A stretch of 64,000 nucleotides of DNA from Thermohalobacter berrensis (GTDB lineage Bacteria; Bacillota; Clostridia; Tissierellales; Thermohalobacteraceae). The position numbers and the translations under genes were made by a program. The notes under the pieces are model-generated. The model saw only the letters and a list, made by a program, of their open reading frames with translations, was not told where the DNA came from and searched no databases. This document shows, in pieces, positions 36,554-40,088 of the stretch (position 1 is its first letter; each line of letters opens with the position of its first letter). The stretch spans positions 1 to 64,000 of the forward strand of contig NZ_MCIB01000023.1 of assembly GCF_003609645.1 (NCBI RefSeq), given 5' to 3'.

Positions 36554-36579
36554 AAACTGCGTCCAATTGGACGCAGTTT
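36554..36579. terminator. Bidirectional terminator
   Basis: The perfect palindrome AAACTGCGTCC-AATT-GGACGCAGTTT lies between convergent genes and overlaps the bactofilin stop codon. Confidence 0.85.
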
Positions 36580-36904
36580 AATTTATCCTTTTACACTTAC
36601 CATTAAAAAATGCTCCTCTGTCTATAATAAACTTTTTAGTTATAATATCACCTGTAAGTATACTGTTTTCAGTAAGATGAATTTTAGTTTTTGCTTTAAT
36701 ATTACCATTAACTTCACCATTAATAATTATATTATCAGCTTCTACATTTCCAATAATTTTACCCGTTGAGCTTATATATACATTATTTGCAGAATATATA
36801 TCACCCTTAAAAATACCATTAATTTTAATATCTCCAGATGCATTAAGTGTACCTTGAAAGAGGGCATTCTTCTCAAGAACCATTAATGATTTAGATTTAC
36901 TCAT
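36578..36904 (-). CDS. Bactofilin (polymer-forming cytoskeletal protein)
   Basis: This 108-residue protein is almost entirely the bactofilin (DUF583) beta-helix: GTLNASGDIKINGIFKGDIY, then SSTGKIIGNVEADNIIINGE, then VNGNIKAKTKIHLTENSILT, with regular Gly-x-Ile spacing. Bactofilins polymerise without nucleotide and organise cell-shape or envelope machinery. The N-terminal 12 residues lack a membrane anchor. The start ATG is behind GGGGG. Single gene. Confidence 0.9.
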   Translation of the reverse strand: MSKSKSLMVLEKNALFQGTLNASGDIKINGIFKGDIYSANNVYISSTGKIIGNVEADNIIINGEVNGNIKAKTKIHLTENSILTGDIITKKFIIDRGAFFNGKCKRIN

Positions 36905-37000: not shown

Positions 37001-37795
37001 CTAATTGTCAGTTTCTTCCTTGAGCTTTTCTACAGCAGCACTTACTGAATTGGAGGCATCTAGCTGTACTTGAGATAATTTCTTTAAATTATCTATTTCA
37101 TTATTTATTTTCTCTATTTCAGTAGATAATTTTACTAATATATCATTAATCTCTTTAGCAAAGTTTTCACTCTCATTTGCAAGCTTTTGAATCTCACTAG
37201 CTACTACAGAAAAACCTTTTCCATATTCTCCTGCCCTTGCAGCTTCTATATTGGCATTTAATCCTAATATTTTAATTTGCTGAGCTATTTTATTTACATA
37301 CTGAACAATCTTGTCACTTTCCTCAATATACTTGTTTGAGGCTTCCGTTGTATTTACTAACATTTCACTTACATTATGTATGTCCTCTACAGAAGTTGCT
37401 ATTTCTTCTAATCGATTTTGGACTACTAAAGAAGTTTCATTTATTGCACTCATTTGAGCATCAAGCTTTTCTAATGTTTCTATATCCCTTTCAACTAAAG
37501 TCATTATAAGGAAAGCACCTTGAGAATCAATAATTTTACAGTCATCTCCATATTTATCATGAAGTGTGTTAGCTACATTCTCTATCCCAGTAGCTTCTAT
37601 AATCATATCTGTATCTACAGGGTTTATATCTTCTATAGATGTTGAGGTATCAACATTTAATTTCTTTGCAAGTTTAATTCCAGATGCATTTACATTGGTA
37701 TCAATTATAACACTTACATGGACCTCATCTAATCGAGCTAGTGATTTAAGAATAGCTGTTCCACCTTTTCCAGCTCCAACTATTGCAACCTTCAT
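37001..37795 (-). CDS. Cytoplasmic chemoreceptor with an N-terminal Rossmann (NAD-binding-like) domain
   Basis: This 264-residue protein is a fusion. Residues 1-110 look like a dinucleotide-binding fold: [10 protein letters not shown] (G7-x-G9-x-G11-G12), an acidic end of strand 2 (VIIDTN), then DMIIEATG at about 63-70 as in homoserine or aspartate dehydrogenases. Residues 113-264 are a methyl-accepting signalling domain with the kinase-contact tip [20 protein letters not shown]. It has no membrane helices. The sensor domain lacks the catalytic half of a dehydrogenase, so it probably binds NAD(H) or a similar ligand and reports redox or metabolic state to CheA or another partner. The ligand and the lack of chemotaxis genes nearby leave its output open. 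Confidence 0.88.
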
Positions 37796-37955
37796 ATATT
37801 TGTCCCCCTTTAATATAACCTTATATTTAATTTTATATTATAAGACAAGAATTTTCAATTTTATATAAAAAATAGAAAATAATTTTTGCTGAAATTTAGC
37901 AATAAGTATAATTATTGCCACATGGGATTACAATAATTAAAAAAGGGTGATATCT

Positions 37956-38174: not shown

Positions 38175-40088
38175 ATGAGAAGATATTTGGCTGTTTTTTT
38201 TACTATAATTATTTTAATTTTAAACATAAATAATACTGTTATTGCAGATAAAAATAAAAAAACTTTAATTATCATTGTAGACAAGTTAGATTTTTTTTTG
38301 GCTAAAGAAATCTATAATGATAAAAACATGTCTATAGGGCTTATGAATATAAAAACTGGTAACATATATAAAAATAATAGTCAGGAAAGTTTTTTTACTA
38401 CTATTTCAACTGGTAGAAGGGTAAAGGTAGAAAAAGGACTTTTTAAAGGAATTACTAAAAAGTCAAAAGGATTATATATAAAAGGATATGATGACATTTT
38501 TAGTTTTTCCTGGGAAATAGATATCTTCGGTCAGTTTTTTAAAAAGCAGAAAATTAAAGTTGGATATATAGGAAAGGACCCTTCAGCAATTATTGCTGCT
38601 GATAAAAATGGATTCATAGAATATGGGGAAAATAAGGTAATATATAACCTTTCATGGCTTGAATCAGAAATAGAAAATATTTATAAAAAAGTTGATATTC
38701 TTATACTTTCATATAAATTTAAAGAGGAAAATAAAAGGATTAGAATACTAAACAATCTTTTAAAAAATATTGACTATCAATACCTTCTTATTTTTCCACA
38801 AGATATAAAGGGAGATATTAATAAAAGGTGGAATACTACGCTAGTTCCATTGTTATATAAACTTCCCTATTCTAAAAAAGGTATTCTTACAAGTGGTACA
38901 ACCAAAAGAGTAGGAGTAATAACAAACTTAGATATCTTTCCAACTATAGCTTCAATTTATAATATAGATAATTCAATGTTTATAGGAAACCCTATTGAAG
39001 TAATAGATAATAAAAAGGCCTTTAATATATCAAAGGATAATCTAATAGAGTTTTTAAACTTAAATATTATTAAATATATTATCCATGGAATTATTATTTT
39101 ATCTCAATTTTATATTATTTTAAAATGGAATAGTAAAGATAAAAAGAAAATCAGAAATTTAAAAACAGTTTCTACTAGTATATCAGCTGGGATATTTATT
39201 TCTTTGATACTGGGTTTATTAGATATCCATAAAAGTATAATCTTATATGTATTAATTTTTTTACTATCTTCCATAACAGTATCATTTATATTTTTAAAAA
39301 AGGAAATTAAAGTTGTGATGTTATTATGTATAGGAACAAGTTTTATGATATTATTTGGTATATTTATATATAAACCGATTATTTATGATTCATATATTGG
39401 ATATAACAATATAGTAGCAGGTGGGAGATTCTACGGTTTAAATAATGAGATAATGGGTGTACTGTTATCAACCTCTATAATAGGATACTTTTCCTTAAGA
39501 GAAAAAATAGAAAATAGTATTATTAAGAATAGTATTTTATTTTTATATTTCCCATTAGTAATTTTATCTCTATCTAATAGATATGGAGCTAACTTCGGGG
39601 GCTTTTTAGGAGCCATAACAGCATTTTTAATGATTATATATATAATTATTTTTGGAGCTAAACTAGAAGAAAAAAATTTTTTACTATTAGCATCTATAGG
39701 GGTTGTAATTTTTTTATTTAATATATATTTTGATGTAAATAATGCTGAAAAAACACATATTGGTAACTTAATTGAAAGAATTAATTTAAATGGATTAAAT
39801 GAGTTTGTAACGGTATTTATTAGTAAAATAAAGCAGTTTATGTTTATGATTGTAATTCCACCATGGAGTATTATATTTTTAGGGCAGCTATATTTTATAA
39901 TAAAAATATATAAATCTGAAAAAGGACTATTATTTAAAATTAAAGATATATATCCAGAGATTATGAAGGGAATGTATGTAGTTTTTATTACTTCAGTTGT
40001 TGTTCTATTTATGAATGATACTGGGGTTATTTCCTTTGTATATATGAATACATATCTAATATCAATTATTATAAATTTATTAAATTAA
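38175..40088 (+). CDS. Alkaline-phosphatase-like extracytoplasmic domain fused to a polytopic membrane domain
   Basis: This 637-residue protein has a signal peptide (1-24), then an extracytoplasmic domain resembling the alkaline phosphatase/sulfatase fold (KKTLIIIVDKLDF near the start, GILTSGTTKRVGVITNLDIF then PTIASIYNI near 265-290). Eight or more membrane helices follow from about 300 to the end. The LTSGTTKRxGxxxNxDxxPT element is typical of this family of Firmicute proteins. The metal ligands of true phosphatases are not clearly preserved, so catalytic activity is doubtful. A role in envelope polymer handling is a guess. It sits between a small membrane protein gene and an EIIA gene with short gaps. 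Confidence 0.7.
   Translation: MRRYLAVFFTIIILILNINNTVIADKNKKTLIIIVDKLDFFLAKEIYNDKNMSIGLMNIKTGNIYKNNSQESFFTTISTGRRVKVEKGLFKGITKKSKGLYIKGYDDIFSFSWEIDIFGQFFKKQKIKVGYIGKDPSAIIAADKNGFIEYGENKVIYNLSWLESEIENIYKKVDILILSYKFKEENKRIRILNNLLKNIDYQYLLIFPQDIKGDINKRWNTTLVPLLYKLPYSKKGILTSGTTKRVGVITNLDIFPTIASIYNIDNSMFIGNPIEVIDNKKAFNISKDNLIEFLNLNIIKYIIHGIIILSQFYIILKWNSKDKKKIRNLKTVSTSISAGIFISLILGLLDIHKSIILYVLIFLLSSITVSFIFLKKEIKVVMLLCIGTSFMILFGIFIYKPIIYDSYIGYNNIVAGGRFYGLNNEIMGVLLSTSIIGYFSLREKIENSIIKNSILFLYFPLVILSLSNRYGANFGGFLGAITAFLMIIYIIIFGAKLEEKNFLLLASIGVVIFLFNIYFDVNNAEKTHIGNLIERINLNGLNEFVTVFISKIKQFMFMIVIPPWSIIFLGQLYFIIKIYKSEKGLLFKIKDIYPEIMKGMYVVFITSVVVLFMNDTGVISFVYMNTYLISIIINLLN

Follow-up and report, generated by a model that had tools for sequence, protein, structure and literature searches.

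The gene at positions 37001-37795 (minus strand) of the window, by which we mean the whole 64,000-nucleotide stretch of Thermohalobacter berrensis DNA analysed, encodes a soluble chemoreceptor with a single N-terminal domain, which has the canonical dinucleotide-binding Rossmann fold; the preliminary description had proposed this architecture, and structural models, Foldseek and VIA-align comparisons support it. We consider it probable that the protein is a short, YfmS-like cytoplasmic chemoreceptor with a free-standing, dehydrogenase-type Rossmann domain as its sensor, that this domain would bind NAD(H), and that the cell's swimming would be guided by its internal NAD(H) state. The computed elements of this reading are the domain, its predicted fold, the conserved residues of its nucleotide site, its reuse on several outputs and a conserved tip in genomes that encode CheA. 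Beyond this one protein, the larger finding is an input domain that is reused, has no Pfam model of its own and is common to BkdR-type regulators and kinases, and a reusable cytoplasmic sensor domain with NAD(H) as its ligand is the most likely interpretation. More tentative, and in our view plausible rather than probable, is the broader proposal that this unnamed five-stranded Rossmann module feeds the NAD(H) state as a general input into sigma54 activators, BkdR among them, as well as into chemoreceptors, histidine kinases and HD-GYP proteins, with direct NAD(H) taxis mediated by a short receptor that has no methylation motifs. If the receptor is indeed of the NAD type, direct redox taxis could be tested with one soluble protein of 264 residues, and bacteria may steer by their own internal redox state.

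The assignment of the gene draws on its open reading frame in the ORF list (264 amino acids, opening with ATG), on the Pfam MCPsignal domain and on full-length relatives; a GGGGG run at 37804-37808 (minus strand) is its probable ribosome-binding site. MCPsignal (PF00015) matched residues 146-259 (6.4e-24; 85.2 bits against a cut-off of 34.6) and is the sole confident Pfam domain of the protein. Among the matches listed (25 of 54 Pfam families), no oxidoreductase model scored above its cut-off on the full protein, and the N-terminus gave weak scores, each below cut-off, for F420_oxidored, GFO_IDH_MocA (17.9 against 24) and NAD_binding_3 (17.0 against 24). The isolated N-domain clears the F420_oxidored cut-off (23.9 against 21.6 bits), with two families listed at E<=0.001. 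The NCBIfam acetaldehyde dehydrogenase model matched the 264-residue protein weakly (1.6e-5; 24.4 against a cut-off of 282), and for membership of the homoserine dehydrogenase, Gfo-Idh-MocA and acetaldehyde dehydrogenase families the full protein lies below the family cut-offs. The highest 19-residue Kyte-Doolittle mean is 1.06, compared with 1.87-3.13 in 12 of the 13 chemoreceptor paralogues of the same genome, in agreement with the earlier statement that the protein has no membrane segment. This genome has another receptor in which no membrane segment is obvious (L010, C6:36492-36752; 432 amino acids, highest hydropathy 1.01). In the AlphaFold model no catalytic domain follows the nucleotide domain, and a signalling helix (residues 91-263) stands in its place, so that the reported lack of a dehydrogenase catalytic domain likewise holds. 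The sequence motifs first picked out are all present, namely a ten-residue motif at residues 3-12, the strand-2 acid, which is D32, and DMIIEATG at residues 63-70.

The sensor domain comprises residues 1-90 (37526-37795, minus strand), as delimited by AlphaFold2 models of the full-length protein and of the domain alone and by Foldseek. AlphaFold2 places strands at residues 2-6, 26-31, 49-51, 64-67 and 87-89 and helices at 10-20, 38-45 and 72-82. The domain-alone model, built from 104 rows, has a pLDDT of 97.4 and a pTM of 0.90; the full-length model has a mean pLDDT of 91.2 and a pTM of 0.52, which leaves the orientation of the domain relative to the hairpin unsure. In both models strand 5 runs without a linker into the chemoreceptor helix, which begins at residue 91, and the start of this helix, SQGAFLIM (residues 91-98; 37502-37525, minus strand; A94 in 89 of 104 domains), is our proposed coupling element. 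The phosphate-binding loop geometry, whose absence the preliminary description had named as a refuting outcome, is present in the model, with G7-x-G9-x-x-G12 at the turn between strand 1 and helix A and D32 directly after strand 2. The best Foldseek matches were acetaldehyde dehydrogenases (E 5.6e-5, TMq 0.74, rmsd 2.1), with query TM-scores (TMq) of 0.69-0.75 across the matches. In VIA-align, where rows differing by less than Z 1 count as tied, GenD2 with NAD bound scored Z 12.3 (rmsd 2.8, 101 aligned residues), 4lrs 12.2, 4hkt 12.0 and TrkA 10.6-10.9, the value for TrkA bound to ATP-gamma-S being 10.6. A profile search of PDB sequences found 26 distinct sequences at E<=0.01, headed by acetaldehyde dehydrogenase (2e-7), with Rex lower (3.2e-4). 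The suggested kinship with homoserine and aspartate dehydrogenases was therefore a little off the mark, the nearest solved relatives by sequence being acetaldehyde dehydrogenases. No single Pfam model covers the domain; at E<=0.001 the 104 members spread over 15 families, the commonest of which is GFO_IDH_MocA (69/104).

The residues of the predicted nucleotide site were counted in 104 domains, that is, the 107 found less the second copy of the window's own domain (L038), the orthologue L025 and L097, a contig-edge row. The phosphate-binding loop GAGKGG (GxGxxG; residues 7-12, 37760-37777, minus strand) retains G7 in 104, G9 in 101 and G12 in 102 of these, D32 (37700-37702, minus strand) is Asp in 100 and Glu in two, and in EATG at the end of strand 4 (residues 67-70; 37586-37597, minus strand) T69 is kept in 101 and G70 in 98, counts that lean high because the collecting profile itself contains these motifs. 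Both the Asp after strand 2 and EATG, the latter with EAT/DAT, align with acetaldehyde dehydrogenases in a profile comparison, and an alignment of 19 N-domains shows no variation at G7, G11, G12, D32, A43, E67, T69, G70 and A94. GxGxxG together with the acid is kept in 98 of the 104 domains: 63 of 63 on short chemoreceptors, 8 of 8 on long chemoreceptors, 6 of 6 on kinases, 17 of 20 on sigma54 activators, 2 of 4 on PAS-HTH_8 proteins, 2 of 2 on truncated proteins and 0 of 1 on the HD-GYP protein. Part of the loop is lost in 3 of 20 sigma54 members, 1 of 4 PAS-HTH_8 members and the single HD-GYP protein, so that not every carrier would still bind, and L025 is without G9 and the first strand as called. 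These losses, together with the missing catalytic domain, are what would be expected if the domain were a relic without a ligand, kept for structure or oligomerisation, and the receptor only added signalling units to arrays or was driven by a partner protein. We hold this to be quite improbable, since the loop and the acid persist in every short and long chemoreceptor counted, despite identities to the window's receptor that fall to 30% across 48 full-length rows.

Neither the fold nor the GxGxxG loop determines the ligand, because Rossmann domains also bind ATP or ADP, as TrkA does, CoA, SAM or nothing. D32, expected to hold the adenosine ribose, is the one feature by which NAD(H) appears to be favoured over NADP(H). 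It is conceivable, though in our judgement unlikely, that the domain binds ATP/ADP, an acyl-CoA or a pathway metabolite, in which case metabolism would be sensed and not the NAD(H) redox state. TrkA with ATP-gamma-S is among the structural matches, Pfam CoA_binding matches 8 of the 104 members (E<=0.001), and the genes of sigma54 carriers adjoin those for phosphate butyryltransferase and butyrate kinase or for acetate/propionate-CoA ligase and MeaB, where acyl-CoAs and keto acids would be natural inducers; however, D32 and EAT(G), which align with residues of NAD-dependent acetaldehyde dehydrogenases, persist whatever the output or pathway, as one would sooner expect of a common cofactor than of a pathway ligand.

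For the NAD(H) reading, we propose that the nucleotide would lie across the C-terminal edge of the sheet, its phosphates above the GxGxxG loop and its adenosine ribose held by D32. The residues that follow strand 5 are close to the nicotinamide in dehydrogenases. Here that segment (D90-S91-x-G93-A94) is itself the start of the signalling helix in the models, so that no separate transmission domain would be needed, and binding or a redox change at the nicotinamide end may shift the helix start at residue 91. Such a shift could be passed down the coiled coil to CheW and CheA, and swimming would then follow the internal NAD(H) state, as a form of energy or redox taxis. As consensus methylation sites are missing, the receptor probably adapts poorly and would report the metabolic state of the moment. 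In sigma54 activators the domain may use this signal to control catabolic operons, for branched-chain amino acids or for propionate/fumarate, and the PAS domains, where present, may add a pathway-specific one.

The signalling part of the protein departs from that of its paralogues in the same genome. The hairpin tip (residues 170-205; 37181-37288, minus strand) is a QxKxLGLN variant, delimited by conservation across 48 full-length rows, in which N180, I183, E184, G194, F195, V198 and A199 are kept in 48 of 48. Position 175 is Lys in 35 of the 48 relatives and Asn, Ser or Asp in ten, two and one of the paralogues, respectively, and position 178 is Gly in 43 of 48 relatives and Ala in 12 paralogues and Ser in one. 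From the conserved Asn180 to its end the arm measures 85 residues, compared with 165-168 in 11 of the 13 paralogues (the other two have 293 and 137). The protein has no consensus methylation motif, strict or loose, whereas 12 of 13 paralogues, and 11 of 48 relatives, carry at least one strict motif. Model, length and motif comparisons thus describe residues 99-264 (37004-37501, minus strand) as a short signalling hairpin without consensus methylation sites, and of the claim of a complete signalling tip the tip itself stands, while the hairpin that carries it is short and lacks the consensus site. Missing methylation sites do not remove the protein from the chemoreceptor family, as not every chemoreceptor needs them.

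The same features leave room for a use outside chemotaxis, with the MCP hairpin serving another partner as a CheA-independent coiled-coil regulator: the arm is half the usual length, there is no methylation motif, the tip carries the K175/G178 variant, and the gene lies away from the che operon. We regard this as very improbable. The MCP hairpin tip contacts CheA and CheW, and its seven residues are the invariant ones given above. Three short soluble receptors in the class with other N-termini (L166-L168), which gave no Rossmann profile match, are similar in arm length (93 residues, counted from the Asn) and share LGLN but have Asn at 175, so that the hairpin looks like a common short chassis and the Lys more specific to the family. 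With no membrane segment, and with an arm that falls in the range of about 85-93 residues counted from the Asn of the tip, the protein belongs with short soluble, YfmS-like receptors. The closest solved-library entry to the hairpin is the integrative YfmS-CheW model (9a72; Z 14.2, rmsd 0.9 over 151 residues), in which the low rmsd counts for more, as long helices reach high Z easily. CheA, detected by H-kinase_dim, is present in 52 of 52 tested genomes with the fusion and in 62 of 148 sampled class genomes (61 above cut-off); at class level the figures are 14 of 14 against 54 of 140 (Fisher 4.7e-6, uncorrected for kinship), a co-occurrence that is weak evidence because chemoreceptor genomes generally have CheA, and that only removes a possible objection. 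Tip conservation and this co-occurrence weaken the CheA-independent use that had been floated at the outset, and we find it unsupported.

The host genome encodes one CheA and two CheW proteins. CheA and one of the CheW proteins come from a region of a different contig, where FlhF, FlhG, CheB, CheC, CheD and FliA were read by eye. By MCP and CheW-domain searches, the initial remark that no chemotaxis gene is nearby is correct within the window; further along the same contig there are two more MCP genes, at about 74 and 83 kb.

The fusion is no isolated case. Full-length relatives occur in four of four family genomes, the host included (the other three at 69-71% identity), and, at E<=1e-25 and again counting the host, in 14 of 391 class genomes; one further full-length relative comes from an Acetoanaerobium noterae record. 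The N-domain profile (A2) matches 110 of 398 phylum genomes. Named holders of the chemoreceptor include Tepidibacter thalassicus, Peptoclostridium litorale, Anaerosolibacter carboniphilus and Acetoanaerobium pronyense. Among named genomes, scanning gave 24 loci, for 23 of which an ORF was obtained: 14 chemoreceptors, two sigma54 activators, six kinases and one cut short.

The Rossmann domain is a module of other signalling proteins too. Its carriers are short chemoreceptors (about 225-305 amino acids), long chemoreceptors (about 485-516), sigma54 activators (441-705), PAS-HTH_8 proteins (about 300-320), one PAS-GAF-PAS-HD-GYP protein and histidine kinases, the last from Nitrospirota, a MAG labelled Deltaproteobacteria and one Eisenbacteria MAG. 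Matches to the N-domain profile, which includes the window's own row, range from E 3.5e-47 to 1.1e-7 on the MCP, sigma54, PAS-HTH_8, HD-GYP and kinase proteins; the outputs were labelled by motif searches and by hand, and Pfam agreed on 20 representatives, among them five kinases with HisKA and HATPase_c. The domain leads directly into the sigma54 AAA+ domain of L069 (4566-5891) and into the HisKA/HATPase kinase part of L126 (5983-7032), and in neither did Pfam find another sensor domain at E<=1e-5, PAS and GAF included, so the Rossmann domain can be the sole recognised input. These two proteins are also simple systems for testing the sensor. The domain tree requires eight output changes for six groups, and the starred branches force at least two for short chemoreceptors; on this tree, which rests on 105 columns and in which loss is indistinguishable from gain, the chemoreceptor fusion may possibly have arisen more than once.

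Several carriers depart from these common forms. The long Rossmann chemoreceptors (L074-L076, L078-L081 and L096) have a segment of about 230 residues between the Rossmann domain and the MCP tip, in which no Pfam sensor family was found in the two tested (L075, about 110-340; L096, about 110-350). L101-L104 are Rossmann-MCP proteins of 224-238 amino acids with an even shorter hairpin, which the domain tree separates from the main group of chemoreceptors. L094, L095, L105 and L106 are Rossmann-PAS-HTH_8 proteins of about 300 amino acids without a sigma54 AAA+ domain (L094 and L105 checked by Pfam); part of the nucleotide site is lost in some of this group, and its members are possibly antagonists or plain repressors. 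PrdR was considered as a relative of the Rossmann domain, as L094 matched TF_PrdR over 46-257, but among the ORFs of six PrdR-type loci there was no hit to the A5 profile, and the candidate was set aside. The host has a PrdR gene above the curated cut-off, which hints at Stickland metabolism.

The sigma54 carriers include regulators of the BkdR type. In L083, L084, L086 and L120 (Piscibacillus halophilus), a Rossmann-PAS-PAS-sigma54 gene, its architecture checked by Pfam in all four, is followed by a phosphate butyryltransferase gene and then by a gene of the Glu/Leu-dehydrogenase family. NCBIfam identified phosphate butyryltransferase, with Spo0A nearby, in L083 and L120, the L120 score lying just below the cut-off of the best model (405.4 against 409), and butyrate kinase in L120; it also confirmed the dehydrogenase family, for which the best model was Trp_DH_ScyB, below cut-off, leucine dehydrogenase being a name given by eye, as are the names of the neighbours in L084 and L086. 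This arrangement resembles the BkdR order in Bacillus thuringiensis, which runs regulator, phosphate butyryltransferase, leucine dehydrogenase and branched-chain acid kinase, and PAS/PAC are the only sensor domains named for that BkdR in the portion of the source available to us (PMC4428206). The regulators of these four loci, of the BkdR type that acts in Ile/Val degradation, have the same N-terminal Rossmann domain as the receptor, whereas their output is PAS-PAS-AAA+-HTH and that of the receptor an MCP hairpin; the domain may be a missing input for a long-studied operon. The sigma54 genes of L070 and L072 lie beside acetate/propionate-CoA ligase, MeaB and fumarase genes (L070 by NCBIfam, L072 by likeness); the 651-amino-acid gene of L070 had been taken for a mutase, and NCBIfam ruled this out by identifying it as the ligase.

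Chemotactic readout of the internal energy state has mostly been explained by FAD-PAS sensors or by electron transport, and Aer has an FAD-PAS sensor. Rex, a winged-helix DNA-binding repressor, senses NAD(H), and the RCK domains of TrkA/KtrA gate K+ transport. Like Rex, the receptor would carry a free-standing Rossmann sensor of NAD(H) on a non-enzyme output, and like the RCK domains it would use a Rossmann domain as a regulatory nucleotide sensor. The NAD domains of acylating acetaldehyde dehydrogenase and of Gfo/Idh/MocA proteins are the nearest by sequence and fold; in acetaldehyde dehydrogenase a catalytic domain follows the NAD domain, whereas in the receptor strand 5 runs straight into the signalling helix. 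With HemAT and Aer the receptor would share cytoplasmic sensing of the energy or oxygen state by a chemoreceptor, but their sensors are a heme globin and an FAD-PAS domain and that of the receptor a dehydrogenase-type Rossmann domain. The hairpin of Bacillus subtilis YfmS, a chain of 286 residues that is not known to us to have a Rossmann sensor, superposes on that of the receptor from residue 114 of the latter, whereas the N-terminal domains are unaligned. In the part of PMC7542364 available to us, YfmS is called a soluble chemoreceptor and HemAT is described as soluble with a heme sensor. A literature search, judged mostly from its listings, found no paper describing a Rossmann or NAD-binding chemoreceptor; in the accessible parts of PMC9321776, PMC12016497 and PMC9973260, "Rossmann" is the name of an author or refers to an unrelated fold.

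Gene neighbourhood was tried as a guide to the ligand and rejected, as no neighbour is general among 34 loci (including L120, a sigma54 locus). Neighbours recurring in at least three of these, named by Pfam in some cases and by eye in others, are an ABC-type ATPase-like protein (8), a sensor-kinase-like family (5), a response-regulator-like protein (4), a small His-rich protein (4) and, in six loci (L111-L115 and L153, with L113 and L153 seemingly one and the same site), an AGCS sodium:alanine symporter. A scan for sigma70-like promoters was uninformative, with 12 sites where 10.6 were expected. Four loci each have a Na+/H+ exchanger gene and one for a small protein, always directly after the receptor gene and on the same strand (L109, 7207-8752, and L142-L144); the small protein of L109 has 126 amino acids and no Pfam match, and these four loci come from the nearest relatives. 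In the window, a bactofilin gene (36578-36904, minus strand; PF04519, 1.4e-27) lies downstream of the receptor gene with 96 bases between the ORFs and is a possible operon partner, and a bactofilin is also found near the orthologue in L143. The window further encodes, at 38175-40088, a protein of 637 amino acids with hydrophobic stretches and no Pfam match at 1e-4, whose likely counterpart, judged by eye, lies at 10048-11988 of L143.
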